From positions 62,001 through 126,000 of the forward strand of contig NZ_JABFMV010000004.1 of NCBI RefSeq assembly GCF_013359685.1: DNA of 64,000 bases. Direction: 5' to 3'. The notes below the pieces were generated by a model that worked only from the letters and a program-made list of their open reading frames with translations, was not told where the DNA came from and made no database searches. The position numbers were made by a program, and so were the translations under genes. Source of the DNA: Leifsonia sp. C5G2 (GTDB taxonomy: Bacteria; Actinomycetota; Actinomycetes; Actinomycetales; Microbacteriaceae). Each line of letters begins with the position of its first letter. Within the stretch, counting starts at the first letter, position 1. Positions 1,682 through 49,466 of this stretch are shown here, one piece after another.

Positions 1682-2374
1682 ATGACCACATCCGACCCGC
1701 GGCCGTTCCGCGTCGTCGTCGTCAACGCGGGCGTCAGCGACCCGTCGTCGACGAAGATGCTCGCCGACCGCCTCGCCCTGCGCGTGGAGGCCGCGGCTCA
1801 GCGCGACGGACACACGGTACAGACGCTCAACCTGGACCTGCGGGAGCTGCTGCCGGAGCTCGGCGCGGCCCTCGCGTCCGGGCACCTCGGCCCGAAGTTC
1901 ACCAAGGCGATCGAGGCGCTGAAGGAGGCCGACGGCATCATCGCGACGGCCCCGGTCTACAAGGCCGGCCCGAGCGGGCTGTTCACCTCGTTCTTCCAGG
2001 TGCTCGACAACGACCTCCTGATCGCGAAGCCGGTCGTGCTCGGCGCCACCGCCGGCACGGCCCGCCACGCCCTGGTGGTCGACGGCGAGATGCGGTCGCT
2101 GTTCGCCTTCCTCCGCACCATGACCGCGCCGACCTCGGTCTTCGCGTCCACCGAGGACTGGCAGGACAAGTCCCTCGGCAAGCGCATCGACCGGGCCGCG
2201 CGCGAGCTGGTCGTGCTGATGGAGTCGGAGGTGGAGGCCAAGATCACCGACACCTCGTGGGACAGCTACCAGCACGAGTTCGGCTCCGCCGGCGGCAATG
2301 AGCTGGGCATCGACCTCGGCTCCGACCTGATGCGACTTGCCGCGGGCGGGGCTCTCCCCACCCAGCGGCGGTAG
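1682..2374 (+). CDS. LLM-partnered NAD(P)H:FMN reductase, CE1759 family
   Basis: This 230-residue flavodoxin-fold NADPH-dependent FMN reductase is the expected partner of the preceding monooxygenase. Its N-terminal VVVVNAG strand leads into the phosphate-binding loop (residues 11-27), and TAPVYKAGPSGL (89-100) is the typical flavin-contacting loop. ATG at 1682 is chosen because it follows GAGAGAAGGAC and gives the normal family length; the frame is open far upstream but that region is the other gene. A strong hairpin at 2397-2425 ends the two-gene operon. Confidence 0.86.
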   Translation: MTTSDPRPFRVVVVNAGVSDPSSTKMLADRLALRVEAAAQRDGHTVQTLNLDLRELLPELGAALASGHLGPKFTKAIEALKEADGIIATAPVYKAGPSGLFTSFFQVLDNDLLIAKPVVLGATAGTARHALVVDGEMRSLFAFLRTMTAPTSVFASTEDWQDKSLGKRIDRAARELVVLMESEVEAKITDTSWDSYQHEFGSAGGNELGIDLGSDLMRLAAGGALPTQRR

Positions 2375-2396
2375 CGCGGGCCGCCTTCCGCCCGCG

Positions 2397-2425
2397 AACA
2401 GGCCCCGGCACCGCCGGGGCCTGTT
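2397..2425 (+). terminator. Rho-independent-type hairpin after FMN reductase
   Basis: A 13-base perfect stem (AACAGGCCCCGGC at 2397-2409, complement at 2413-2425) with a 3-base loop lies 22 bases after the stop codon. It is not followed by a U-tract. Confidence 0.8.
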
Positions 2426-2441
2426 GCCGTCTGCGGGCTCG

Positions 2442-2463
2442 CCCTGCACGGTAGGGTGCAGGG
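2442..2463. promoter_or_regulatory. Promoter -10 inside a short palindrome
   Basis: CCCTGCAC (2442-2449) and GTGCAGGG (2456-2463) are reverse complements flanking GGTAGG, so the -10-like hexamer TAGGGT (2452-2457) sits within the palindrome. A GGGAGG ribosome-binding site and the GTG start of the glycosyltransferase follow, giving an inferred leader of about 20 bases. Confidence 0.45.
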
Positions 2464-2483
2464 TAGAACAGGGAGGTCTTCGG

Positions 2484-3977
2484 GTGGACGTTCTCACCGT
2501 GCTGCACTGGATCGGCGTGGTCGTGTGCCTGATCCTCGCGCTCTCCGGCCTCATCCCGGTGATCGCGGCGGCCGCGACCTTCGTCGTCATCCCGTTCCAC
2601 GCCTGGATCAACCACTACAAGAAGGCCGCGCCGTACCTCCCCCGCGTCGCCATCATCGTGCCGGCCTGGAACGAGGGCGCCGTGATCGGCGCATCCATCG
2701 ACCGGTTGATGAAGCTGGACTACCCGCGCGAGGCGCTGCGCATCTACGTCGTCGACGACGCCAGCACCGACGACACCCCGGTCGTCGTGCGCGACCGTGC
2801 CGAGCGGTACCCCGGCAACGTGTTCCTGCTCCGCCGCGAGCAGGGCGGCCAGGGCAAGGCGCACACCCTCAACCACGGCATCGCCCGCGTGCTGGAGGAC
2901 GACTGGATGGAGGCGCTCCTGATCATGGACGCCGACGTCATCTACCTGCCGGACTCCCTCCGCCGCATGACCCGGCACCTGGCCGACCCGGAGGTCGGCG
3001 CCGTGTCCGCCTACATCCGAGAGGGCAGCACCGAGCGCAACTACCTCACCAAGTTCGTCGGGGTGGAGTACGTGCTCTCGCAGCCCGCCGCGCGCCGCGC
3101 GCAGAACGTGCTGGGGGCGCAGGCGTGCCTCGCCGGCGGCGCCCAGCTGCACACCCGCGAGAACCTGATCGCGATCGGCGGCCGCATCGACACGTCGTCG
3201 CTCGCGGAGGACACGATCACCACGTTCGAGACCCAGCTGCTCGGCAAGAAGGTGGTCTTCGAGCCGCACGCGCACGTGCTGGCGGAGGAGCCGAACCGCG
3301 TCGACGCACTGTGGAAGCAGCGGCTGCGCTGGGCGCGCGGCAACGTCACCGTTACCGCCCGCTACGCGAAGGTCTGGTTCCGGCCGTCGCGGAAGCACCA
3401 CCTGGGCGGCGTCAGCTTCGGGATCGTGTGGTTCAGCCTGTGGCTGCTCCCGCTCATCATGATCCTGTCGTCGGTGGGGCTCGCCGGGCTGCTGTTCCTG
3501 CAGGACGAGCTCGCCACCAACGTCTTCCGCGTGTTGTGGATCTCGGCGGCGCTGGCGTACCTGTTCGTGCTGATACTGGGCTCGCAGACCGACGGAGCGA
3601 CGACCAAGCACACCCTCGGGCATGTGCTGCTGTTCCCCGGGATCGTCAACATGCTGGTCATGGTGACGGCGCTGTTCCCGCCGGTGATGCTGGTCTGGCT
3701 GCCCGGCCTGTTCGGGGTCGCACTCGACGGTCCCGCCCTGTTCGCGATCACGCTCGCGATCTACATCTGGATCCCGTTCTCGATGGTCGTCGCGTGGCTC
3801 GCCCGCAAGGCCGAGCGGACGCGCGCCGGTCGCTGGCTCGCGCCGGCGCTCATCTACCTCGCCGGGTACGGCTCGCTGCTGTGCGCGATCACGTTCGACT
3901 CCTACCTCAAGGAGCTGGCCGGCACCGAGGCCAAATGGGACAAGACCGAGAAGGTCGGGCGCGTCGCCACGAGCTGA
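2484..3977 (+). CDS. Membrane glycosyltransferase, family 2
   Basis: This 497-residue processive-type GT2 enzyme at the inner membrane has one or two N-terminal membrane segments (about residues 4-40) and a cytosolic catalytic domain (about 50-290). The catalytic domain carries DDAS (91-94), DAD (149-151), AED (241-243) and QRLRW (279-283), the D,D,D,QxxRW set of cellulose/hyaluronan/IcaA-type polysaccharide synthases. Four or five membrane segments follow. The GTG start at 2484 is chosen because GGGAGG lies 7 bases before it and the upstream in-frame part overlaps a terminator. It stands alone, without precursor-supplying genes, so the polymer cannot be inferred. Confidence 0.82.
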   Translation: MDVLTVLHWIGVVVCLILALSGLIPVIAAAATFVVIPFHAWINHYKKAAPYLPRVAIIVPAWNEGAVIGASIDRLMKLDYPREALRIYVVDDASTDDTPVVVRDRAERYPGNVFLLRREQGGQGKAHTLNHGIARVLEDDWMEALLIMDADVIYLPDSLRRMTRHLADPEVGAVSAYIREGSTERNYLTKFVGVEYVLSQPAARRAQNVLGAQACLAGGAQLHTRENLIAIGGRIDTSSLAEDTITTFETQLLGKKVVFEPHAHVLAEEPNRVDALWKQRLRWARGNVTVTARYAKVWFRPSRKHHLGGVSFGIVWFSLWLLPLIMILSSVGLAGLLFLQDELATNVFRVLWISAALAYLFVLILGSQTDGATTKHTLGHVLLFPGIVNMLVMVTALFPPVMLVWLPGLFGVALDGPALFAITLAIYIWIPFSMVVAWLARKAERTRAGRWLAPALIYLAGYGSLLCAITFDSYLKELAGTEAKWDKTEKVGRVATS

Positions 3978-4093: not shown

Positions 4094-4801
4094 ATGACCT
4101 CAGCATCCGCCGCAGCGCCCGCCCTCTCCGCGGGCGCGCTCACCAAGTCCTACGGCAGTTCGGTCGCCCTCGCGGGCGTCGACTTCCGCATCGCCCCCGG
4201 GGAGTCGGTGGCGATCATGGGCGCCTCCGGCTCCGGCAAGACCACCTTGCTGCACTGCCTTGCCGGCATCGTCGCCCCCGACAGCGGCTCCGTCGTGCTC
4301 GCGACCCCGCACGGCCCGGTCGAGGTCACCGGCCTCGACGAGCGCGGACGCTCCCGGCTGCGGCGCGAGGCCTTCGGCTTCGTGTTCCAGCAGGGCCTGC
4401 TGCTCCCCGAGCTGACCGCGCTCGAGAATGTCGCGCTCCCGCTCATGCTGAACGGCGTCGACCGCAGGGCCGCCGAGCAGACCGCGAGCATGTGGCTCGC
4501 CGCGCTCGGGCTCGCCGGCTTCGAGGCGCGGCGCATCGGGCAGCTCTCCGGAGGCCAGGCGCAGCGGGTGGCGATCGCCCGGGCGCAGACCACGGGCGCC
4601 GCGGTGGTGTTCGCCGACGAGCCGACCGGCGCGCTCGACTCGCAGACCTCGGCGGAGGTGATGGATGCGCTCATCCGCTCCACCACCGACCGCGGCCGCT
4701 CGCTCGTGGTGGTCACCCACGACGAGACCGTGGCCTCCCGCTGCTCCCGCGTGCTGCGGCTCGCGGACGGCCGGATCGTCGACGAGGTGGTGTCGCGATG
4801 A
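4094..4801 (+). CDS. ABC transporter ATP-binding protein, MacB/LolD type
   Basis: This 235-residue nucleotide-binding subunit has Walker A GASGSGKT (43-50), Q-loop FVFQQG, signature LSGGQ (151-155), Walker B VVFADEP (171-177) and an H-loop VVTHDE. The DEPTGALDSQTS run is typical of the MacB/LolD/FtsE-like exporters that work with FtsX-fold permeases. Its TGA overlaps the ATG of the permease gene (ATGA at 4798-4801), so the two are translationally coupled. The substrate is unknown; antimicrobial peptide or lipoprotein handling is the common role of the family. Confidence 0.85.
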   Translation: MTSASAAAPALSAGALTKSYGSSVALAGVDFRIAPGESVAIMGASGSGKTTLLHCLAGIVAPDSGSVVLATPHGPVEVTGLDERGRSRLRREAFGFVFQQGLLLPELTALENVALPLMLNGVDRRAAEQTASMWLAALGLAGFEARRIGQLSGGQAQRVAIARAQTTGAAVVFADEPTGALDSQTSAEVMDALIRSTTDRGRSLVVVTHDETVASRCSRVLRLADGRIVDEVVSR

Positions 4802-6129
4802 CCACGCTCCGCCTGGCCTGGCTGTTCGCACGGCGCAGCGCCTCCGCCCGCTCCACAGTCGTGCTGCCGGTCGTCGCGTTCGCGGTCGTGACCGCCCTGC
4901 TGCTCATCGTCGCCGGCGGCGCGCAGTCGTTCTTCACCTGGACCGACGACATGGCGGGGCTGTACCAGGTGCTCGCCGTCGTCGCCCTCTCGCTGCTGAT
5001 CGTGCCGCTCGTGGCCCTCGGCGGCTCGGCCGCGCGCCTCTCCGCCCGCCGCCGCGACGACCGGCTGGCCGGTCTGCGCCTGCTCGGCGCGACGCCCGGG
5101 ATGGTGACGGCCCTCACCGTGATCGAGTCGACCGTGCTCGCGGTCGCGGGTGCGCTGGCCGGAGCGGTCGTCGCACTGGCCGCCTCCCCGCTGGTGGCAC
5201 TGATCCCGTTCCGCGGCGAACCGCTCGGGTTCTCCGTGCTGCTCGGACCCGCCTGGGTCGCGCTCGCGGTGATCGGCGTCGGCATGCTCGCCGCCGTGAG
5301 CGCGGTCGTCGGTCTCCGCGGCGTCATCCTGTCGCCGCTCGGCGTGCGCACCCGGCAGCAGGCGCCGCGCGTGCGCTGGGTGCGCGTCGTCGTCGCGATC
5401 GCGGTCGTCGCGCTCGTCGCCGGCGCCATGTCCGTGGTCTCCGCTGCGCCCGGCGTCGGCATCCTGGTGACCGTGCTCGCCGTCGGCTTCGGCGGGACGG
5501 TCGCGGTGCTCAACCTGATCGGGCCGTGGGTGCTGCGGGTGGTCGCCTCGGGGCAGGCCCGCCGCGCCAGGACCGCGCGGCGCCTGCTCGCGGCGCGCAG
5601 CATCCTGGAGTCGCCCAAGGCCGCCTGGCGGCAGGTCTCCGGCGTGGCGATGACGAGCTTCGTCGCCGTCGTGGCGGGGGTCGGCGTCGCGGTGATGGAT
5701 GCGGCCGCCGGCAGCGCGGACGCGCAGTCCCGGATGCTCGTCGCCGACATCCGCACCGGCGTGCTGATCACGATCGTCGCCTCCTTCCTGATGGTGGCGT
5801 GCTCGGCCGGCGTGAACCAGGCGGCCGCCGTCCTCGACCGCCGCGACCTCTACGTGAGCCTCGACCGCATCGGGATGCCGGTCGCCGAGATGAACGCGGC
5901 CCGCGGTCGCGCGGTCCTCTCGCCGCTGCGCATCACCTCGATCGGCTCGGCCGTGACGGCGGCGGTCGTGCTGTTCCCGCTCACCGGCCTCAGCCTCCTG
6001 ATCTCACCGCTGACCCTGGCGACGGTCGCGGGATGCCTCGCGACCGGCATCCTGCTGGTCTGGGCGGCCCTGCGCGCGACGCGGCCGGTGCTGACCCGGG
6101 TGCTCGCGGAGCCGGCGCCCAGCCTGTGA
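4798..6129 (+). CDS. FtsX-like ABC transporter permease
   Basis: This 443-residue integral membrane partner of the preceding ATPase has two FtsX-like halves, with hydrophobic blocks near the N-terminus, around residues 55-80, 100-170, 200-260 and in a second set over the last 150 residues. The motif RRDDRLAGLRLLGATPGMV in the first cytosolic stretch is the coupling-helix region seen in permeases paired with MacB-type ATPases. It has no large extracytoplasmic domain like that of MacB itself. A hairpin starting 6 bases after the stop (6135-6171) may end transcription and at the same time carries the next promoter. Confidence 0.8.
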   Translation: MTTLRLAWLFARRSASARSTVVLPVVAFAVVTALLLIVAGGAQSFFTWTDDMAGLYQVLAVVALSLLIVPLVALGGSAARLSARRRDDRLAGLRLLGATPGMVTALTVIESTVLAVAGALAGAVVALAASPLVALIPFRGEPLGFSVLLGPAWVALAVIGVGMLAAVSAVVGLRGVILSPLGVRTRQQAPRVRWVRVVVAIAVVALVAGAMSVVSAAPGVGILVTVLAVGFGGTVAVLNLIGPWVLRVVASGQARRARTARRLLAARSILESPKAAWRQVSGVAMTSFVAVVAGVGVAVMDAAAGSADAQSRMLVADIRTGVLITIVASFLMVACSAGVNQAAAVLDRRDLYVSLDRIGMPVAEMNAARGRAVLSPLRITSIGSAVTAAVVLFPLTGLSLLISPLTLATVAGCLATGILLVWAALRATRPVLTRVLAEPAPSL

Positions 6130-6134
6130 CGGTG

Positions 6135-6171
6135 CGGGCATGCTCCGCCCGGTAGGGTCGGAGCATGCCCG
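6135..6171. promoter_or_regulatory. 13-base inverted repeat enclosing the -10 hexamer and start codon of chorismate mutase
   Basis: CGGGCATGCTCCG (6135-6147) and its exact complement (6159-6171) flank an 11-base loop ending in TAGGGT (6153-6158). The ATG at 6165 lies in the right arm, 6 bases after TAGGGT, as in a leaderless promoter. In read-through RNA from the permease gene this forms a strong hairpin hiding the start codon and may terminate. As DNA it could be an operator. Confidence 0.6.
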
Positions 6172-6479
6172 ACATCAGCGACACGGAGGCCGCACTCCAG
6201 CAGCTCCAGAGCATCCGCCAGAGCATCGACAACATCGACGCGGCGGTCATCCACATGCTCGCCGAGCGGTTCAAGTTCACGCAGCAGGTGGGGGCGCTGA
6301 AGGCGGAGCACGGGCTCCCGCCGGCCGACCCGGAGCGCGAGCGCGAGCAGATCCAGCGGCTGCGGGGCCTTGCCGAGGAGAGCCACCTCGACCCGGCGTT
6401 CGCGGAGAAGTTCCTCACCTTCATCATCGCCGAGGTCATCCACCACCACGAGCGCATCGCCGGCGAGAACGGCCGCTGA
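6165..6479 (+). CDS. Chorismate mutase, AroQ type
   Basis: This 104-residue all-helical chorismate mutase converts chorismate to prephenate in phenylalanine/tyrosine synthesis, in the cytosol. The E. coli AroQ active-site residues are present at a constant offset of +7: Arg18, Arg35, Lys46, Asp55, Arg58 and Glu59. The position corresponding to the final Gln88 does not appear to be Gln (His95 falls there). There is no prephenate dehydratase or dehydrogenase domain, so it is monofunctional. No Shine-Dalgarno is needed if it is read from a leaderless transcript. The SDR gene starts 2 bases after its stop. Confidence 0.85.
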   Translation: MPDISDTEAALQQLQSIRQSIDNIDAAVIHMLAERFKFTQQVGALKAEHGLPPADPEREREQIQRLRGLAEESHLDPAFAEKFLTFIIAEVIHHHERIAGENGR

Positions 6480-6481
6480 AG

Positions 6482-7405
6482 GTGTCATGGAACCCGGCCG
6501 AGCTGCCGGACGCCCACGACCGTACCGTGGCGATCACGGGCGCGAACGCGGGCGTCGGCTACTTCACCGCCGAGCAGCTGGCCCGCGCGGGCGCGCGGGT
6601 GGTGCTCGCCTGCCGTGACCCGGAGCGGGCCGAGGCGGCCGTCGCGGCGATCCGACGGCGGGTGCCCGGTTCGCGCGTGCAGGCGGTGCCGCTGGATGTG
6701 GCCGACCGGCGCTCGGTCGACGCGGCGGCGGAGTCGCTGCTCGCCCTCGACCGGCTCGATGCGCTCGTGCTCAACGCCGGGATCGTCCACCCGCCGCGGA
6801 CGCGCCAGACCGACGCGTACGGCAACGAGCTCGTGCTCGCGACCAATGTGCTCGGGCACTTCCGGCTGACCGCCCGCGTGCTCCCGGCTCTCGAGCGCGC
6901 CGGCGACGCGCGGGTCGTCGTCCTGGGCTCGCTGGCCTCCCGGTTGGGACGGCTGCGCCTCGACGACCTCCAGCTGGAGCGCTCGTACACGGGCTGGCGC
7001 GCGTACTCCGGGTCGAAGATCGCGGCGCAGGCGTTCGGTTTCGAGCTTGACCGGCGGCTGCGGGCCTCCGGCTCCTCGGTCCGCAGCATCGTCGTGCACC
7101 CCGGGTACTCGACCTCGGGGCGCACACCCGGCATCCGCGGCGTCAACCAGCCGGGCCGGCTGAAGCGCTTCGCCGACAACCTGCAGGCGGCGTGGACGCA
7201 GGGCAAAGACGCGGGAGCCCACGTCCCGGTGCGCGCCGTGCTCGATCCCGACCTCTCCGGCGGCGACTACCTCGGCCCCGCGCTGCTGACCAAGGGCGCG
7301 CCCGTGCACGCCCCGGCGACCCGCGCCTCCCGCTCCCCGCGCCTCGGCGCCCGCCTCTGGCCGCTCCTCGAGTCCGCCGCCGACGAGCCCTTCCCCCTCC
7401 CCTGA
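6482..7405 (+). CDS. Short-chain dehydrogenase/reductase, WW-oxidoreductase/retinol-dehydrogenase-like
   Basis: This 307-residue SDR has the NAD(P) motif TGANAGVG (19-26), the LVLNAGI motif and the catalytic YSGSK (Tyr-x-x-x-Lys) in the second half. The overall pattern resembles the retinol-dehydrogenase/protochlorophyllide-reductase-like group, with an extended C-terminus (RLGARLWPLLES). The GTG start at 6482 lies 2 bases after the chorismate mutase stop, so translation is probably coupled. The substrate is unknown; there is no clear link to aromatic amino acid synthesis beyond the shared transcript. Confidence 0.78.
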   Translation: MSWNPAELPDAHDRTVAITGANAGVGYFTAEQLARAGARVVLACRDPERAEAAVAAIRRRVPGSRVQAVPLDVADRRSVDAAAESLLALDRLDALVLNAGIVHPPRTRQTDAYGNELVLATNVLGHFRLTARVLPALERAGDARVVVLGSLASRLGRLRLDDLQLERSYTGWRAYSGSKIAAQAFGFELDRRLRASGSSVRSIVVHPGYSTSGRTPGIRGVNQPGRLKRFADNLQAAWTQGKDAGAHVPVRAVLDPDLSGGDYLGPALLTKGAPVHAPATRASRSPRLGARLWPLLESAADEPFPLP

Positions 7406-7416
7406 AACCTCCACCA

Positions 7417-7475
7417 TCGAGTCCGCAAAGACTGCACACTTTTCGACGCAAAACGTGCAGTCTTTGCGGACTCGA
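7417..7475. terminator. 21-base perfect inverted repeat between convergent genes
   Basis: Arms at 7417-7437 and 7455-7475 are exact complements (left arm begins TCGAGTCCGCAAAGAC) with a 17-base loop rich in T and A. It lies between the convergent stops of the SDR (7405) and the minus-strand gene (7490), so it is probably a bidirectional terminator. It contains more A/T than the local coding DNA. Confidence 0.75.
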
Positions 7476-7489
7476 CGGAGGGCGGAGGG

Positions 7490-7783
7490 TCAGGCGTCGA
7501 CGACGATGGTGAGGAGGCGGTGCTCGGGCGGGACCTGCGCGCGGAGAGCGGTGCTGGCGGCGGCGTAGTCGGCGCCCTCGGCCTCGACCTCACGGACGGC
7601 CGACTCCCGGATGACACCAGACGCGATCACGCGGCCACCGCGGGGCATCGAGTTGTGCACCTGCAGCAGATCGAACCCTTCGGGCACCTGCTCCTCGATC
7701 AGCGCCCGCGCCGCCTGCGCGTCGTCGGCCTCCGCCGTCAGCTCCCGCGTACCGCTGCTCTGGATGAGACCACGCACCTTCAT
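7490..7783 (-). CDS. Conserved hypothetical small protein
   Basis: This 97-residue cytosolic protein has no signal peptide or membrane segment. Two similar halves can be seen, each with a basic strand ending in a short Arg/Gly turn and an acidic helix (DDAQAARALIEEQVPEGFDLLQV and GADYAAASTALRAQVPPEHRLL), suggesting an internal duplication of a small alpha-beta unit. Start ATG 7783 (MKVRG) is preferred because GAGGG lies directly upstream and the fold starts there. An in-frame ATG at 7804 would add seven residues. I do not recognise a named family. Confidence 0.65.
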   Translation of the reverse strand: MKVRGLIQSSGTRELTAEADDAQAARALIEEQVPEGFDLLQVHNSMPRGGRVIASGVIRESAVREVEAEGADYAAASTALRAQVPPEHRLLTIVVDA

Positions 7784-7821
7784 GCCCTCAACGCTAGCTG
7801 ACATCCGACCGGCCCCGCCGA

Positions 7822-7827
7822 TACGGT
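7822..7827 (+). promoter_or_regulatory. Leaderless-type -10 (TACGGT)
   Basis: The hexamer lies 6 bases before ATG 7834, which has no convincing ribosome-binding site. Confidence 0.45.
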
Positions 7828-7833
7828 GAAGGG

Positions 7834-9120
7834 ATGGACTACCTCACCGCACCCCTCGACGAGACCTCCCGGGCGGCCCTCGCCGCGACCGGACTCCGGT
7901 ACGCCGTCCTCGACAACGACGACGCCGCCGCACTGGAGGGCTGGATCCGGGCCGACTTCCGCGGCTTCCACGGCAAGCGCCCCTCGGCGGAGGTGCTGGA
8001 GGAGGCCCGCGGCAGCTTCGCGGGCCGACGCAACACGGGCGTCTACGACGACGAGGGCGCGACCTCCGACCCGGTCGGCACCGTCAACACCTGGCCGGCA
8101 CCGCTCACCGTGCCGGGCGGCGCGCGCGTCGACTCCTGGGCGATCAGCTCCGTGACGGTCGCGCCGACCCACCGCCGCCGCGGCATCGCGACCGCGCTGC
8201 TCGGCGGCGAGCTGCGCACCGCGCACGCGCTGGGGCTGCCGCTCGCCATCCTCACCGTCTCCGAGTCGGTCATCTACGGCCGCTGGGGCTTCGGCCCGGC
8301 GACCTGGGCCACCGCGTGGAGTGTCGACACCAAGCGCGTCCGCTGGGCCGGCGGCGAGACGCCCGGGCGCCTGTCGTTCGCCGAGCCCGCGGAGTACGAG
8401 GAGACCGGCGCGCGCGTCCTCGACCGCGTCATGGCGTCCCGCGCGGGCGAGATCGGCCTGGAGCCGTACCTCGCCAAGCGCCTGATCGGCCCGATGAAGG
8501 GCGACCCGGACGCCGACAAGCTGCGCCTGGTCCGCTACGACTCGGCCGAGGGCGAGCCGGAGGGTTTCGTCACCTACGTCCTGAAGGACGACCCGGAGGA
8601 CGACTTCACCCGCCACACCGTCGTCGTGAACCATCTCGCCGCCGCGACCCCCGAGGCTCTCCGCGCGCTGTGGCGGTTCCTCATCGAACTCGACCTGGTC
8701 GCCGAGGTGAAGGTGTGGACGCGCGGCGTCGACGAGCCGTACCAGTCGCTCGTGAACGACATCCGCGGCGCGCGGGTGACCGAGCTGCAGGACCACCTGT
8801 GGGTGCGCATCCTCGACGTCCCGGCCGCGCTGCAGGCGCGCACCTACGAGCAGGACGGCTCGCTCGTGATCGACGTCGCCGACGACCTGGGGCTCGCCGG
8901 AGGCCGGTTCCGCCTGACCGTCCGCGACGGACGCGCCGAGGTGGAGGCGACCGAGGACGCGGCGGACGTGTCGCTGCCCGTCGCCGCGCTCGGCAGCGCG
9001 TACCTGGGCCACGACGTGGTCCGCGGGCTGGCGCTCGCCGGGCGCATCCAGGGCGATGCCGAGGCGCTCGACCGTCTCTTCCGCACGGCCGTGCCCCCGC
9101 GCCTCAGTACCTGGTTCTAG
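7834..9120 (+). CDS. Eis-like GNAT family N-acetyltransferase
   Basis: This 428-residue protein has the three-part Eis build: an N-terminal GNAT domain with the acetyl-CoA loop VAPTHRRRGIATALL (about residues 109-123), a second GNAT-like domain, and a C-terminal SCP2-like sterol-carrier domain with VIDVADDLGLAGGRFRL. The last residue is Phe (LSTWF), as in the Eis family, where the terminal carboxylate acts in catalysis. Eis of Mycobacterium acetylates aminoglycosides and peptides; the natural substrate here is unknown. It converges on purA, separated by a hairpin at 9151-9179. Confidence 0.87.
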   Translation: MDYLTAPLDETSRAALAATGLRYAVLDNDDAAALEGWIRADFRGFHGKRPSAEVLEEARGSFAGRRNTGVYDDEGATSDPVGTVNTWPAPLTVPGGARVDSWAISSVTVAPTHRRRGIATALLGGELRTAHALGLPLAILTVSESVIYGRWGFGPATWATAWSVDTKRVRWAGGETPGRLSFAEPAEYEETGARVLDRVMASRAGEIGLEPYLAKRLIGPMKGDPDADKLRLVRYDSAEGEPEGFVTYVLKDDPEDDFTRHTVVVNHLAAATPEALRALWRFLIELDLVAEVKVWTRGVDEPYQSLVNDIRGARVTELQDHLWVRILDVPAALQARTYEQDGSLVIDVADDLGLAGGRFRLTVRDGRAEVEATEDAADVSLPVAALGSAYLGHDVVRGLALAGRIQGDAEALDRLFRTAVPPRLSTWF

Positions 9121-43866: not shown

Positions 43867-43907
43867 CGCAGCACGCCGCCATCCACGAGGGATGACGGCG
43901 TGCTGCG
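43867..43907. terminator. Palindromic repeat, second copy of the 30113 family
   Basis: CGCAGCACGCCG (43867-43878) and its perfect complement (43896-43907), preceded by TGACGAACGAG whose TGA is the stop of the upstream gene. It separates the small plus-strand gene from the convergent polysaccharide operon. Confidence 0.7.
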
Positions 43908-43924: not shown

Positions 43925-44989
43925 TCAGGCGCCCGCGACGGGCACCAGGTCGCGCTCGGGGGCGGGAGCGTCGGCCTTCGTGGCGGCAGGCTTGGGCTTG
44001 ACCACGACGGGCTTGACCGCGGCGGGCTTGGCGGCCGCGGCGGGGGCAGCGGCAGCCGGCGTGAGCGGCAGCGTCGGAATGGGCGCGGTCTCCGCCGGAC
44101 CGGCGGTCGTCGCGAACTCCTTCAGCCACGGCAGCAGCTCCGGTCCGAGGTCCTCGCGGGCCACGGCCATCTGCACGATCGCCTTCAGGTAGTCCAGCCG
44201 GTCGCCCGTGTCGTAGCGGCGTCCCTTGAAGATGACGCCGTGCACGCCGCCGGTCCACGCGGGAGCGGTGGCCAGGCCCTCCAGGGCGTCGGTCAGCTGG
44301 ATCTCGCCGCCCTTGCCCGGCTCCGTCTTCTCCAGGATGTCGAAGATCTCCGGGCGGAGGACGTACCGGCCGATGACCGCATAGTTCGACGGAGCGTTCT
44401 CGCGGCTCGGCTTCTCGACGAGGCCGGTGATGCGCACCACGTCGTCGTCGTCCGTCTCCACCACCGCGGCGGCGCCGTACAGGTGGATGGACTCCGGCGG
44501 CACCTCCATCAGGGCCACGACGGTCGTGTTGAGCGCGTGCTGCACCTCCAGCATCCGGGAGAGCAGCGGGTCGCGGGCGTCGATGATGTCGTCGCCGAGC
44601 AGGACCGCGAACGGCTCGTGCCCGATGTGCATCTTCGCCCGGAGGACCGCGTGACCGAGGCCCTTCGGGTCGCCCTGCCGCACGTAGTGCATGTCGGCGA
44701 GCGAGGTCGAGTAGCTGACCTTGAGGAGCTTGTCGAGGTCGCCCTTCTTCTCGAGGGCGTCCTCGAGCTCGGCGTTGCGGTCGAAGTGGTTCTCGAGCGC
44801 GTTCTTGTTGCGCCCGGTCACCAGCAGCACGTCGTGCAGGCCCGAGGTGACGGCCTCCTCGACCACGTACTGGATGGCCGGCTTGTCCACCACCGGCAGC
44901 ATCTCCTTGGGCATGGCCTTGGTCGCGGGCAGGAACCGCGTCCCCATGCCCGCTGCCGGGATCACCGCTTTCGTCACGTAACTGGTCAT
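43925..44989 (-). CDS. galU: UTP--glucose-1-phosphate uridylyltransferase
   Basis: This 354-residue enzyme makes UDP-glucose from UTP and glucose-1-phosphate. The N-terminus holds PAAGMGTRFLPATKAMPKEMLPVVDKPA, the nucleotide-binding and catalytic signature, and EKPSRENAPSNYAVIGRYVL and GRRYDTGDRLDYL follow. After about residue 295 there is a 55-residue Ala/Pro/Lys-rich tail (AAAAPAAAAKPAAVKPVVVKPKP) not found in the usual enzyme. It is the last gene of the polysaccharide operon, so a dedicated supply of precursor is likely. Confidence 0.93.
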   Translation of the reverse strand: MTSYVTKAVIPAAGMGTRFLPATKAMPKEMLPVVDKPAIQYVVEEAVTSGLHDVLLVTGRNKNALENHFDRNAELEDALEKKGDLDKLLKVSYSTSLADMHYVRQGDPKGLGHAVLRAKMHIGHEPFAVLLGDDIIDARDPLLSRMLEVQHALNTTVVALMEVPPESIHLYGAAAVVETDDDDVVRITGLVEKPSRENAPSNYAVIGRYVLRPEIFDILEKTEPGKGGEIQLTDALEGLATAPAWTGGVHGVIFKGRRYDTGDRLDYLKAIVQMAVAREDLGPELLPWLKEFATTAGPAETAPIPTLPLTPAAAAPAAAAKPAAVKPVVVKPKPAATKADAPAPERDLVPVAGA

Positions 44990-45023
44990 GATGGTCTCCT
45001 TGCGGTCGTTTCGGTCCGGCGGT

Positions 45024-46424
45024 TCAGCGGACGGGGGTGAGGGCGGCGAGGTCGTCGGCGAGCGGCGCGACCTCCGGGACCGTGCCCATGGCGTAGACGC
45101 TCCAGCCTGCGCGGCTCCAGGCGGAGGCGTCGAGGCAGTTGCGGCCGTCGATGACGTTGCGGCCGCTCACGATCGCACGCAGCTCGGCCGGGTCGGCGGT
45201 CGTGAACTCGTCCCACTCGGTGAGCACGACCGTCAGGTCGGCGCCGGTGAGCGCCTCCTCCATCGAGTCCGCGTAGCCGAGGGTCGGGAACAGTCGCTGC
45301 GCAGTGGTGCGGGCCTGCGGGTCGTAGACGACGACCTGCGCGCCCCGAAGGTGCAGCGCGGCGGCGACGTTGAGCGCGGGCGAGTCGCGCACGTCGTCGG
45401 TGTGCGGTTTGAAGGCCGCGCCCAGCACGCCGATGCGGCGGTTGAGCACCGAACCGCCCAGCGCCTTCAGCGCCAGGTCGATCACGCGCTGGCGGCGGCC
45501 CATGTTGATCTCGTCGACCTGCTGCAGGAGGCCGACCGCCCCGTGCGCGCCCAGCTCGTTGGAGCGGTGCATGAGCGCGCGGATGTCCTTCGGGAGGCAG
45601 CCGCCGCCGAAGCCGAGGCCGGCGTTGAGGAACTGCCGCCCGATCCGCTTGTCGTGCCCGAGCGCATCGGCCAGGAGCGTGACGTCCGCGCCGGCCGCGT
45701 CGCACACCTCGGCGATCGCGTTGATGAAGGAGATCTTGGTGGCGAGGAAGGCGTTCGCGCTCACCTTCACCAGCTCGGCCGTCGGCAGGTCTGCGACGAG
45801 AACGGGCGACCCCTCGGCGATCGGCTTCTCGTAGATGCGGCGGAGCGTGGCCTCCGACTTCGCCGACGTGCCGCCGAACACCAGCCGGTCCGGCGAGAGG
45901 GTGTCCTCCACCGCCTTGCCCTCGCGCAGGAACTCGGGGTTCCACACGAGCTCCACGTCGATCCCGGCCGGGGCCGCGTCGGCGATGATCGCCCGCAGCC
46001 GCGCGCCGGTTCCGACCGGAACGGTCGACTTGCCGACGATGAGGCCGTCGTGCGTGAGGTTCTCGGCGATGCCGCGGGCGGCGGCCTCCACATAGGAGAG
46101 GTTCGCGGCGAACGAGCCCGACTGCTGCGGCGTGCCGACGCAGATGAAGTGGACGTCGGACACGGCGACGGCCTCGGCCAGGTCGGTGGTGAAGCTGAGG
46201 CGGCCGGCGGCGACGTTCCGGCGGATGAGCTCCGGCAGGCCGGGCTCGAAGAACGGCGCGCGGCCCTCCTTCAGCTCCTCGACCTTGCGCGGGTCGGTGT
46301 CGACGCCGACGACGTCGAAGCCGAGCTCGGCCATGGCGGCCGCGTGGGTGGCTCCGAGGTAGCCGGTGCCGATGACGCTGATGCGCGGTGCCGGCTGGTC
46401 CTTGATCTTCTTGGGAGCGGTCAT
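45024..46424 (-). CDS. ugd: UDP-glucose 6-dehydrogenase
   Basis: This 466-residue NAD-dependent enzyme oxidises UDP-glucose to UDP-glucuronate. The Rossmann motif is GTGYLG (19-24), the central helical domain carries NPEFLREGKAVED, and the catalytic Cys is in GFGGGCLPKDIRAL. A late RDSPALNVAAAL segment is the UDP-binding part. ATG 46424 has GGAAAGGAC. It sits between the GH26 gene and galU, so a hasB-like role in feeding the membrane synthase is likely. Confidence 0.93.
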   Translation of the reverse strand: MTAPKKIKDQPAPRISVIGTGYLGATHAAAMAELGFDVVGVDTDPRKVEELKEGRAPFFEPGLPELIRRNVAAGRLSFTTDLAEAVAVSDVHFICVGTPQQSGSFAANLSYVEAAARGIAENLTHDGLIVGKSTVPVGTGARLRAIIADAAPAGIDVELVWNPEFLREGKAVEDTLSPDRLVFGGTSAKSEATLRRIYEKPIAEGSPVLVADLPTAELVKVSANAFLATKISFINAIAEVCDAAGADVTLLADALGHDKRIGRQFLNAGLGFGGGCLPKDIRALMHRSNELGAHGAVGLLQQVDEINMGRRQRVIDLALKALGGSVLNRRIGVLGAAFKPHTDDVRDSPALNVAAALHLRGAQVVVYDPQARTTAQRLFPTLGYADSMEEALTGADLTVVLTEWDEFTTADPAELRAIVSGRNVIDGRNCLDASAWSRAGWSVYAMGTVPEVAPLADDLAALTPVR

Positions 46425-46453
46425 GGCGATCGTCCTTTCCAGTGGTCGGTGGG

Positions 46454-47926
46454 TCAGGGAGCCGGCGTGAGGGCGAAGTCGTCCTCTGGCCGGGTGAGTC
46501 CGGTGATGAAGGCCGACAGCGAGTCGGCACGGGAGTCGATGCGCCAGTCGTTGGTGGCGCGCACGCCCTCCACGTAGCTGGTGACGGCGAGGTTGAACCA
46601 GGAGAACCCGATGATGTCCTCGTTCTCCGGTTTGGCGAGTGCTTGGAAGAAGGAGGTGATCCAGGCCGCCTTGTGCCCCTCCGTCTCCGACGCGCCGACC
46701 TCGGCGAGCATGATGGGCTTGCTCGTGATCGAGCGGAGCTTGTCCAGGCTGGCCTTGAACGTGTAATCGAAGCTGAAGTCGTTGTCCGACTTGTACGGCG
46801 GGCGGAGGTAGCCGGAGAGGCCGACCCAGTCGACGTACGCGTCTCCGGGGTAGAGCGACTCGAGGTAGCCGGGCGCTTTGTGCGACGCGGGCAGGTTGTT
46901 GACGATGTTCGGCGCCCAGATCCACATCACGAGGTTGTTGGCGCCCTCCTGCTGGAAGATGTCGTGGACGTGCCGCCACATCTTCGCGTAGTCGCCGACG
47001 TTGTTGCCGTTGATCGAGTTGCCCTGCCCGTCGGTCTCCGACCACGGGTACCAGATGCCGTTCATCTCGTGGTCGAGGCGGATGCCGAGCGGCAGGCCGG
47101 TCGCGACGATGTCCTTCGCGTACTGGTGCAGGTAGGCGTCGAAGTCGCCGCGGATGATGTTCGGCAGCGAGTACGCCGGAGCGTCCACGGTGTCGTTGCC
47201 CGCGTTGATCGGGCGCGACTCCCACGTCATCATCGGCAGGCGACCCTGCTGCCAGGACCGGGTGACCGCGTTGGCGCGGAAATTCTCGTCCCAGCCGCTG
47301 AAGTAGCCGACGACGTTCGGCGAGACGCCGACCTTCGCGCTGGTGGCGTCGAAGGTGGCCCAGTTGAAGGGGGCCTGCTCGGTGTACATCCCGTAGTAGC
47401 GCTTCGCCGGGCTGAGCAGTTCGGCACGCGACGGCGCGGTGATCGGGGCCGCGGCGCTTCCGCCGCTGGAGCCCTTGCCGCCCGCGGCGGTGGAGCCGGA
47501 TGCGGTGGACCCGCTTCCGGACTTCCCCTGCGCCGCCGCCAGCTGCGCCTGCATGCTGGCCAGCCGGCCCTCCGCCGCTGCGGCCTTCTGCTGGGCCGCC
47601 GCGAGCTGCTTGGCCGCGGACGCCTGAGCCGCGAGGGTCGACTTCTGCAGGGCGGTGAGCTTCCCCTTCTGCGACGCGATGGTCTCGGTCGCCTTGTCGA
47701 GGTTGCGCTTCAGCTCGGCGTTCTGCGCGGCGAAGGGCGTCACGACCTCGGCGGCCTGGTCGACGGCCTTGCGCAGCGGGGCGCCGGTCGGCGACACCCA
47801 GACGTAGGCGGAGATGCCGACGAGCACGGCGGTGAGCACGAGCGCCGCGACGGTCGTCGCCTGCGAGCGGGACTTGGACTGGGACCACCAGGCGGCGGCC
47901 CGTGAGGGGGCGGTCTGGTCAGACAA
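46454..47926 (-). CDS. Membrane-anchored GH26 glycosidase with coiled coil
   Basis: This 490-residue protein has one N-terminal membrane anchor (about 24-44), an Ala/Gln/Lys-rich coiled coil (about 53-134), a Gly/Ser linker (134-162) and an extracellular GH26 domain (about 175-480). The acid/base Glu287 is in RLDHEMNG and the nucleophile Glu409 in MLAEVGASE, as in endo-beta-1,4-mannanases; some GH26 members cut mixed-linkage beta-glucan or beta-xylan. It overlaps the synthase gene by 8 bases, so it probably trims or releases the polymer made by the synthase. Codon use matches the operon. Confidence 0.83.
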   Translation of the reverse strand: MSDQTAPSRAAAWWSQSKSRSQATTVAALVLTAVLVGISAYVWVSPTGAPLRKAVDQAAEVVTPFAAQNAELKRNLDKATETIASQKGKLTALQKSTLAAQASAAKQLAAAQQKAAAAEGRLASMQAQLAAAQGKSGSGSTASGSTAAGGKGSSGGSAAAPITAPSRAELLSPAKRYYGMYTEQAPFNWATFDATSAKVGVSPNVVGYFSGWDENFRANAVTRSWQQGRLPMMTWESRPINAGNDTVDAPAYSLPNIIRGDFDAYLHQYAKDIVATGLPLGIRLDHEMNGIWYPWSETDGQGNSINGNNVGDYAKMWRHVHDIFQQEGANNLVMWIWAPNIVNNLPASHKAPGYLESLYPGDAYVDWVGLSGYLRPPYKSDNDFSFDYTFKASLDKLRSITSKPIMLAEVGASETEGHKAAWITSFFQALAKPENEDIIGFSWFNLAVTSYVEGVRATNDWRIDSRADSLSAFITGLTRPEDDFALTPAP

Positions 47927-49466
47927 GGAAGAGAGCCTCCAGGGTCAGGATCGCGATTCCGATCAGGTAGGGGATGGCCGCGAGCGGGTTCAGGCGGCGG
48001 CGCGCGGCCTTCGGCGCAGGCGCGTGGGCTGCGGCCTCGGCCGCGCGGGCCTCGGCGGCCTTGGCCTCTGCGCGGGTGGCGACGTGCGTGCGGGTGGCGA
48101 GCGCGGTCGCGGTGGTCATGCCGCCGACAGCATCGGGCAGGGCCGGAGCCGCGGAGGCAGAGGAGGCCGTCGCGGCCGTGTGCCGGGCGATCTCCTCTTC
48201 GGAGCTGACCTCTCCGGGGCCGCCGGAGTAGGCGCCGGCGCGGGTGCCCCATCCACTGGCGTGCGCCATGCGGAAGAACCCGATGAGCCGGATCGGCATG
48301 AGGAAGAAGGTCGAGACGATGATGAACACCGGAAGGCGGAAGAAGTCGCTCGGCTTCTCGGAGAGGTGCCGGATCTGGCGGATCGACATGCTGATCACGG
48401 ACGACGCCACCATCAGCGCGACGACGGTGAGAATGCCGCCCTCGATCCCGTAGGACTTCAGGAAGCCCTCGTAGAAGTTGTAGCCGCCGCCGGTGATCGA
48501 CCGGTAGATCCAGCCGCCGATGACGCCCGCCAGCATGAACGGCAGGATGATGTCCATCACGAAGAAGAACGCCAGCACCGGGGCGTGGCCGAGCATCCAC
48601 GGGAGCATCCGCATGGTGTTGTACTGGCTGCCGCGCGCCCAGCGGAGCTGCTGCTTGAACAGCTTCTTCACCTTCAGCGGGGCGTCGGTGTAGACCAGGC
48701 TGGTGTGCTGGTACACCGTGCGGTAACCCTCCTTGAGGGTGAGGTTGGTCAGCGTGCGGTCGTCGGAGACCTCGAGGAAGACGCCGAGGAACTTCTCGGT
48801 CATGAACTTGTCCATGACGCGCATCAGGATCGAGCGGCGGAAGGCGATCGTGCGGCCGGGCAGGCAGCCGATCTGGCCGACGACGCTCTGCGCGGGCATC
48901 GAGTACAGGGCGCGGGAATTCTCCAGCCAGTCCGCCCAGCGGGTGATCCAGCTGCGGGTGGGCTCCAGGATGCGCTGCTTCGTGGTCACGCCGCCGACGC
49001 GCTCGTCGGCGAACGGCTTGACGAGCTCGGCGAGGGTGCCCTCGGTCCAGATGGTGTCGGAGTCGACGAGCACCGTGATCTCGCCGGTCGACATCTTGGT
49101 GCCGATCATGACGGCGTTGCGCTTGCCCGGGATGGGCGTGTGCACCCAGCGGACGAGGGGCGCGAACTCCTCGCACACCTCCGCAAGCTCCGGGTTGGGC
49201 GCGCCGTTGATGACGACGATGATCTCGCCCGGCTTCTGCTCGACCATACGGCCGAGCACGTCGCGGAACAGGTCGAGCGGCTCGTCCACCACCGGGACGA
49301 CGACGCTGGTGGTGCCGTGGAACTCGCCGGTGTAGGCGCGGTAGCGGCGGGACATGAGCGCCTTGACGATCCAGATGACCCAGATCAGCGCCGAGTAGAT
49401 CGCGAAGAGGTAGAACTCGGGGTGCCCGCCCAGCATATGGCGGAGCTGAAGAAGGAAGATGAACAC
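47919..49466 (-). CDS. Membrane glycosyltransferase family 2, hyaluronan synthase-like
   Basis: This 515-residue processive synthase has an N-terminal membrane segment (about 15-38), a cytosolic catalytic domain and four or five C-terminal membrane segments. DSD is at 135-137, SDDR at 234-237 and QQLRW at 272-276, close to the hyaluronan synthase pattern (DSD...GDDR...QxxRW). The first Asp motif is degenerate (VVINGAPN in place of DDGS). An Ala-rich cytosolic region (about 430-490) precedes a last membrane helix. First gene of the operon GT2-GH26-Ugd-GalU. Confidence 0.84.
   Translation of the reverse strand: MFIFLLQLRHMLGGHPEFYLFAIYSALIWVIWIVKALMSRRYRAYTGEFHGTTSVVVPVVDEPLDLFRDVLGRMVEQKPGEIIVVINGAPNPELAEVCEEFAPLVRWVHTPIPGKRNAVMIGTKMSTGEITVLVDSDTIWTEGTLAELVKPFADERVGGVTTKQRILEPTRSWITRWADWLENSRALYSMPAQSVVGQIGCLPGRTIAFRRSILMRVMDKFMTEKFLGVFLEVSDDRTLTNLTLKEGYRTVYQHTSLVYTDAPLKVKKLFKQQLRWARGSQYNTMRMLPWMLGHAPVLAFFFVMDIILPFMLAGVIGGWIYRSITGGGYNFYEGFLKSYGIEGGILTVVALMVASSVISMSIRQIRHLSEKPSDFFRLPVFIIVSTFFLMPIRLIGFFRMAHASGWGTRAGAYSGGPGEVSSEEEIARHTAATASSASAAPALPDAVGGMTTATALATRTHVATRAEAKAAEARAAEAAAHAPAPKAARRRLNPLAAIPYLIGIAILTLEALFLV

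Follow-up and report, generated by a model that had tools for sequence, protein, structure and literature searches.

We analysed a stretch of 64,000 nucleotides from Leifsonia sp. C5G2 (family Microbacteriaceae; contig NZ_JABFMV010000004.1, positions 62,001 to 126,000), hereafter the window. Four open reading frames stand in one line on its minus strand and encode, in order, a family 2 glycosyltransferase (GT2), a membrane-anchored family 26 glycoside hydrolase (GH26), a UDP-glucose dehydrogenase (UGD; UDP, uridine diphosphate) and GalU, a UTP-glucose-1-phosphate uridylyltransferase (UTP, uridine triphosphate). The first three genes form a conserved module whose probable task in Leifsonia is to synthesise an acidic polysaccharide of the cell surface and trim it. 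An earlier inspection of the letters alone (the sequence-only reading) had reported four minus-strand genes with an 8-base overlap between GT2 and GH26 and gaps of 29 (GH26-UGD) and 34 (UGD-GalU) bases, and the open reading frame coordinates bear this out. Below, positions refer to the window, and L and G numbers denote loci and genomes, respectively.

Features of the locus

47919..49466, minus strand: GT2, glycosyltransferase of family 2 and putative processive synthase (GTG start, 515 aa)
47922..47987, minus strand: C-terminal transmembrane helix of GT2, residues 494-515, kept in 15/15 aligned sequences
46454..47926, minus strand: GH26, membrane-anchored, of the CtLic26A (lichenase) type (TTG start, 490 aa)
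47786..47866, minus strand: N-terminal hydrophobic anchor of GH26, residues 21-47, with an invariant Trp-Trp just before it (15/15)
47519..47779, minus strand: long helix of GH26, putative coiled-coil stalk, residues 50-136 (AlphaFold2 model)
46490..47407, minus strand: catalytic barrel of GH26, residues 174-479
47066..47068, minus strand: Glu287 of GH26, aligning with Glu109 of CtLic26A
46802..46804, minus strand: Arg375 of GH26, aligned in place of Trp187 of CtLic26A
46700..46702, minus strand: Glu409 of GH26, aligning with Glu222 of CtLic26A
45024..46424, minus strand: UGD, UDP-glucose 6-dehydrogenase-type nucleotide sugar dehydrogenase (ATG start, 466 aa)
43925..44989, minus strand: GalU, with a Pro/Ala/Lys-rich tail (ATG start, 354 aa)
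43868..43906, minus strand: inverted repeat directly past the GalU stop (17-base arms, one mismatch, 5-base loop)

The UGD contained three Pfam domains. GalU matched Pfam NTP_transferase and, at 334.9, exceeded the equivalog cut-off (326.8) of the NCBIfam model TIGR01099. The inverted repeat, which has no T run behind it, possibly marks where the transcription unit ends. A Pfam scan of the four nearest neighbours of the unit identified an acetyltransferase, a DUF7144 protein, a nitroreductase and an alcohol dehydrogenase.

Conservation of the gene order

Gene order, protein families, conservation, the kept catalytic residues and the association between Arg375 and UGD were established directly. 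We sampled the larger groups, taking 150 genomes from the family, 149 from the order and 148 from the class, the last of which was searched with GT2 alone. In the family, GT2 matched 33/150 genomes (E <= 1e-40) and GH26 matched 34/150 (E <= 1e-10). GT2 matches above 500 bits came from 25 genomes, including that of the window, and the same 25 genomes held the 25 best-scoring GH26s; the remaining eight GT2-positive and nine GH26-positive genomes contained distant homologs only. GH26 was adjacent, downstream and on the same strand at all 25 close-GT2 loci (24/24 fetched plus the window), and UGD came next at 24 of them (23/24 fetched plus the window). The exception lacking UGD, L054, had the most divergent GT2 (55-56%).

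GalU belonged to the unit at only two of the 25 loci (1/24 fetched plus the window), both from Leifsonia, and was rejected as a core member. The unit is therefore GT2-GH26-UGD, and its hasABC-like appearance is a Leifsonia overlay. The sequence-only reading would have been refuted by a lack of conserved order in related genomes; this outcome did not arise, as the first three genes kept their order at 24/25 family loci, GalU joining them in Leifsonia only. A GH26-led scan of genome contigs yielded 21 loci, among which nine Leifsonia loci (L002-L010) carried all four genes. Ten of the other twelve carried GT2-GH26-UGD with no GalU within the fetched stretch, and two lay on short contigs, with GT2-GH26 (L018) and GH26 alone (L022). 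GalU and UGD copies were counted in ten genomes at E <= 1e-30. Two Leifsonia genomes had two GalU copies each, seven others had one elsewhere and G237 had none, which identifies the operon GalU as an added Leifsonia copy; UGD paralogs were found in 9/10 genomes. Outside Leifsonia, the unit often lay between glnE and a convergent glnA, as confirmed with Pfam in L032 and L036 and judged by eye from protein starts in further loci.

Beyond the family, GT2 was detected in 4/149 order genomes (E <= 1e-70) and 2/148 class genomes, both counts including the window's genome. The triad was present in the order loci L055 and L056 (the latter on the same contig as L021), whereas L057 had GT2-GH26 and no UGD within 10 kb. 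The other class genome provided L087, where GT2 and GH26 are followed by the beginning of a UGD gene that runs into the contig end. The triad was also present on a Curtobacterium plasmid. The GH26 query matched 13/149 order genomes (E <= 1e-15), so GH26 relatives are commoner there than the GT2-GH26 pair; four of these matches were already in our set, eight were added and G274 (contig end) was left out. The arrangement is more than chance: the same gene order recurs in different genera and families and in a single genome from another order, and synonymous change far exceeded amino-acid change between the GH26 genes of the window and L002 (pS 0.154, pN 0.014).

Doubling of the region was seen in two species. 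In Cellulosimicrobium cellulans (L020, 5786-14163), the unit read GT2-GH26-UGD-GT2-GH26. In the Lacisediminihabitans changchengi assembly, the region occurred on two scaffolds (L014 and L017) that were identical over 17,398 bases, which reflects either a true duplication or an error of assembly.

The synthase

The GT2 matched Pfam PF13641 (79.3 bits) and appears to be of the hyaluronan-synthase-like class. The motifs DSD, SDDR and QQLRW, already picked out by the sequence-only reading, were present and invariant in 15/15 aligned sequences, and a WGTR motif was present as well. The extra C-terminal transmembrane helix follows a variable Ala-rich linker and is itself constant. The top solved-structure matches were weak ones to hyaluronan synthases (E 7e-18 and 2.6e-16). 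The family has ARG after QxxRW, where the two solved hyaluronan synthases have TKS and SKS. No NCBIfam equivalog cut-off was reached by the GT2, and the residues separating its close homologs from the two lacking UGD gave no clear uronate signature. A second GT2 (546 aa), only distantly related, lies on the plus strand of the window at 2337-3977.

The tethered hydrolase

The GH26 matched Pfam PF02156 with 47.8 bits (cut-off 20.2) and was 97% identical to the GH26 of Leifsonia virtsii. From the N-terminus, it consists of a sole hydrophobic segment (21-47), a predicted helix (50-136) and the barrel (AlphaFold2 model built with 15 sequences, mean pLDDT (predicted local distance difference test) 73.5), in agreement with the membrane anchor and coiled coil claimed earlier, the coiled coil remaining putative. 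The single transmembrane segment and the positive residues at the N-terminus suggest that the GH26 domain faces outward and that the enzyme is tethered rather than freely secreted.

Both by sequence and by fold, the best match was the lichenase CtLic26A of Clostridium thermocellum (2bv9, 2cip), with which the GH26 groups. The two share the barrel and both catalytic Glu residues, of which we take Glu109 of CtLic26A to be the acid/base and Glu222 the nucleophile. Unlike CtLic26A, the window GH26 has a transmembrane anchor, a stalk and an insertion near residues 449-459, as well as Arg in place of Trp187 (a number counted along the aligned chain) and Asp/Asn in place of Leu107. Trp187 appears to lie in the active-site region. 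A mannanase was ruled out, as CtLic26A ranked above the listed mannanases in both sequence and fold. The fold matches included the GH26 xylanase AlXyn26A.

Residues of the cleft were compared in a GH26 alignment that drew on 76 places. We left out L034, L035 and L056, which repeat the contigs of L013, L016 and L021, and L017, which is identical to L014. This gave 42 UGD-linked GH26s and 28 others. Three sequences, those of L018 and L022 and the second of the two Cellulosimicrobium copies (L020), stayed outside both counts, and each carried Arg375. The 28 others were CtLic26A and 27 sequences drawn from 24 loci, among them the GT2-linked copies without UGD of L054 and L057, the GT2-linked Deinococcus and Salinirubellus copies and three rhizobial/Microvirga GH26s near another UGD.

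The catalytic Glu residues at 287 and 409 were kept in 42/42 UGD-linked GH26s. Position 375, directly after a predicted strand (367-374) in the GH26 model, was Arg in all 42, whereas the 28 others had Trp (20), Tyr (4), Phe (2), Thr (1) or Val (1). Asp/Asn occupied position 285 in 42/42 UGD-linked sequences and 2/28 others, and Arg occupied position 238 in 37/42 and 1/28, respectively. As a follow-up, nine more GH26s were read (L087 and eight order loci). The UGD-linked L087 had Arg375 and Asp285 and lacked Arg238, and seven of the eight GH26s without a UGD match lacked Arg375, the exception being L088. In total, Arg375 was present in 43/43 UGD-linked GH26s vs. 1/36 others. On the GH26 tree, all Arg forms fell into one clade (45 tips, support 0.915); on the enlarged tree, this clade had 47 tips (support 0.731), with L088 as its first branch.

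Some GH26 genes without UGD had other neighbourhoods. Overlapping GT2-GH26 pairs with no annotated UGD adjoining were seen in Deinococcus taeanensis (L061, 4556-6777) and the haloarchaeon Salinirubellus salinus (L063, 4641-6768). Lone Trp-type GH26 genes occurred on four Micrococcaceae plasmids (L059, L065, L069, L070), in three of four cases near HU and J-domain genes.

Comparison with known systems

The type 3 capsule locus of Streptococcus pneumoniae (ugd-wchE-galU-pgm) produces a glucose-glucuronate polymer and, in the accessible part of its description, only the synthase and Ugd are specific (PMC3182177). Like that locus, the window unit has one synthase (putatively processive), Ugd and GalU, galU being dispensable in the capsule system through a second copy elsewhere, according to the same portion (PMC3182177). 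The minimal specific set, synthase plus Ugd, is present in our family loci. Unlike them, the four capsule genes, as far as the available text covers them, include no glycoside hydrolase and stand in another order.

Rhizobial APS operons (described in the accessible text of PMC7902896) also combine a GT2 synthase with UGD, and a GH26 joins them in Phyllobacterium and in Rhizobium CCGE532. Unlike our unit, they have UDP-glucuronate decarboxylase, epimerase and DUF995 partners, and their GH26 and GT2 are only distantly similar. We observed APS-like loci with GH26 near synthase and UGD in Phyllobacterium (L064, 1-6666), Rhizobium (L067, 1805-9111) and Microvirga (L066, 680-8624); these GH26s were 26-28% identical to ours and lacked Arg375.

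Another actinobacterial exopolysaccharide cluster with a GH26 is wps-1 of Actinoplanes missouriensis, where deletion of the GH26 gene wpsE led to some abnormal sporangia, as stated in the available portion of the paper (PMC13390465). Unlike our synthase-dependent unit, wps-1 has a predicted Wzx/Wzy pathway, and its description, in that portion, names no UGD (PMC13390465). Among characterised Wzx/Wzy clusters its authors were aware of none that carries a GH26, in the part of their text available (PMC13390465). The hydrolases BcsZ and CcsZ of cellulose operons resemble our GH26 in being encoded beside their synthase, at least in the accessible parts of the sources. Unlike in our unit, the hydrolases there belong to other GH families (CcsZ presumably to one other than GH26) and the polymer is neutral; cellulose operons are not known to carry UGD.

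We recognised no published synthase-dependent GT2-GH26-UGD locus in the literature searched, where coverage of subscription papers was limited. The earlier statement that no described locus has a GH26 in this place thus stands for a synthase-dependent unit in that literature. It does not extend to exopolysaccharide clusters in general, in which GH26 is already known (wpsE of wps-1, accessible text of PMC13390465) or was observed here (the APS-like rhizobial loci).

Sister clusters were noticed in the same family at L081 (5324-11137, minus strand), L083 (7314-16455, plus strand) and L084 (7749-13631, plus strand). They combine UGD and a GT2 from the same superfamily (identity 32-34%) with one or more right-handed beta-helix proteins replacing GH26, and their polymers are possibly modified by an epimerase or lyase.

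Proposed system and alternative explanations

On balance, we lean towards a synthase-dependent exopolysaccharide operon with the core GT2-GH26-UGD, making a beta-linked, glucuronate-containing chain that is edited by a dedicated, tethered GH26. The conserved unit fits the polymer, glucuronate-containing and processed at the surface, that the sequence-only reading had suggested from gene content. UGD makes UDP-glucuronate from UDP-glucose, and GalU makes UDP-glucose. The picture that follows is inferred with regard to donor use, linkage, topology, the action of GH26 on the polymer of its own operon and the part played by Arg375. UGD would convert UDP-glucose to UDP-glucuronate, and the extra GalU of Leifsonia would raise the UDP-glucose supply. 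The membrane GT2 would polymerise glucuronate, most likely alternating with glucose through beta-1,4/1,3 linkages in a chemistry like that of the type 3 capsule, and would move the growing chain through the membrane. The GH26, a lichenase-type enzyme whose cleft would be altered by Arg375 and Asp/Asn285, would sit on the outer face near the synthase by means of its transmembrane helix and long helical stalk, and would cleave the beta-linked chain as it emerges, thereby setting its length or releasing it. The type 3 capsule precedent and a lichenase-type cleft suited to a beta-1,3/1,4 backbone make a glucose-glucuronate polymer our first guess, given somewhat less than an even chance. In Sinorhizobium meliloti, a mixed-linkage glucan is cut by lichenase to a disaccharide, according to the accessible part of the report (PMC9495663).

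Several observations weigh against this proposal. The substrate of the GH26 may be a different polymer of the wall. In L088, the GH26 has Arg375, Asp285 and Arg238 and yet no UGD match in 12 kb, which weakens the case for Arg375 as a strict sign of a link to UGD, and it stands beside a different, cellulose-synthase-like GT2; a UGD may lie elsewhere in this genome (G247), beyond the 12 kb. Because the Arg forms make up a single clade, their association with UGD counts as one event at most, and since L088 branches first, Arg375 may predate UGD or serve another purpose. By alignment and tree, Arg375 marks the lineage behind the UGD-linked units, not UGD itself, and is therefore by itself no proof that this Arg binds glucuronate. 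The three rhizobial/Microvirga GH26s near a different UGD carry Tyr at 375, and the comparison GH26s were a convenience set. The GT2 structure model was too poor for judging donors (pLDDT 50.4), and of the three genomes listed for the window's genus, G125 had neither GT2 nor GH26. As an observation on L088 itself (4539-8608, plus strand), its Arg-type GH26 has an Excalibur domain and overlaps the 664-aa cellulose-synthase-like GT2.

Sharing with hasABC a synthase that bears the D-x-D, DDR and QxxRW motifs, Ugd and, in Leifsonia, GalU, the unit could be a true hyaluronan operon in which GT2 uses UDP-N-acetylglucosamine and UDP-glucuronate and GH26 is an accessory. We consider this unlikely, even though the GT2 has hyaluronan synthases as its closest sequence relatives of solved structure, UGD and GalU both stand in the window unit, and the alignment showed WGTR to be common to the GT2 and the algal-virus hyaluronan synthase. 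The synthase matches are weak, with the NCBIfam equivalog cut-off unreached, and ARG rather than TKS/SKS follows QxxRW. Unlike hasABC, the unit has a lichenase-type GH26 in second place, GalU in Leifsonia only and no gene pointing to N-acetylglucosamine, and so the hasABC label given earlier is not supported; known hyaluronan hydrolases, moreover, belong to families other than GH26. A glucose-glucuronate chain is more likely than hyaluronan. Rather improbable is a homopolymeric glucuronan made from UDP-glucuronate alone and cut by the GH26: UGD is the sole precursor gene kept throughout the family loci and the GH26 cleft changes would suit such a chain, but the added Leifsonia GalU would raise UDP-glucose too, and the known cutters of glucuronan are mostly lyases.

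We see very little chance of a pentose-based chain, in which UDP-glucuronate would be decarboxylated to UDP-xylose or UDP-arabinose as in rhizobial APS. The APS-like rhizobial loci (UXS-GalE-GT2-UGD-DUF995-GH26) also contain a GH26, and AlXyn26A is among the fold matches. However, there was no decarboxylase or epimerase in the four Pfam-scanned window neighbours, UDP-xylose synthase not having been sought genome-wide, nor in the other loci, judged by eye from protein starts only; the distant rhizobial/Microvirga GH26s lack Arg375, and the Microvirga synthase shows 21% identity along a partial alignment. Equally remote is a GH26 that scavenges plant or microbial beta-glucans and is in the operon by chance. 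GH26 relatives do occur without the close GT2 homolog in 9/34 GH26-positive family genomes and also in the order, but the gene is directly downstream in 25/25 close-GT2 loci and overlaps GT2 in the window, the UGD-linked GH26s bear distinct residues, and the enzyme appears to be tethered.

Meaning for the family

Returning to the synthase-dependent operon with its tethered GH26, a bolder version of it is possible, though we hold it doubtful. In it, the synthase and hydrolase of an acidic exopolysaccharide system not yet described in actinomycetes would have altered in step: UGD would have joined an existing GT2-GH26 pair, and the tethered lichenase would have become an endo-hydrolase specific for glucuronate-containing beta-1,3/1,4 chains. 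The Trp-to-Arg and Leu/Ala-to-Asp/Asn changes in its cleft would account for this activity, which would be new to GH26. If the proposed system is real, its GH26 would be a candidate new enzyme for uronate-containing beta-glucans, and the module would offer a minimal three-gene model of how a synthase and a tethered hydrolase control chain length in a Gram-positive cell. Roughly one sampled family genome in six (25/150), and some relatives, would then produce an acidic polymer that awaits characterisation, along with a specific cutting enzyme built into the same unit.

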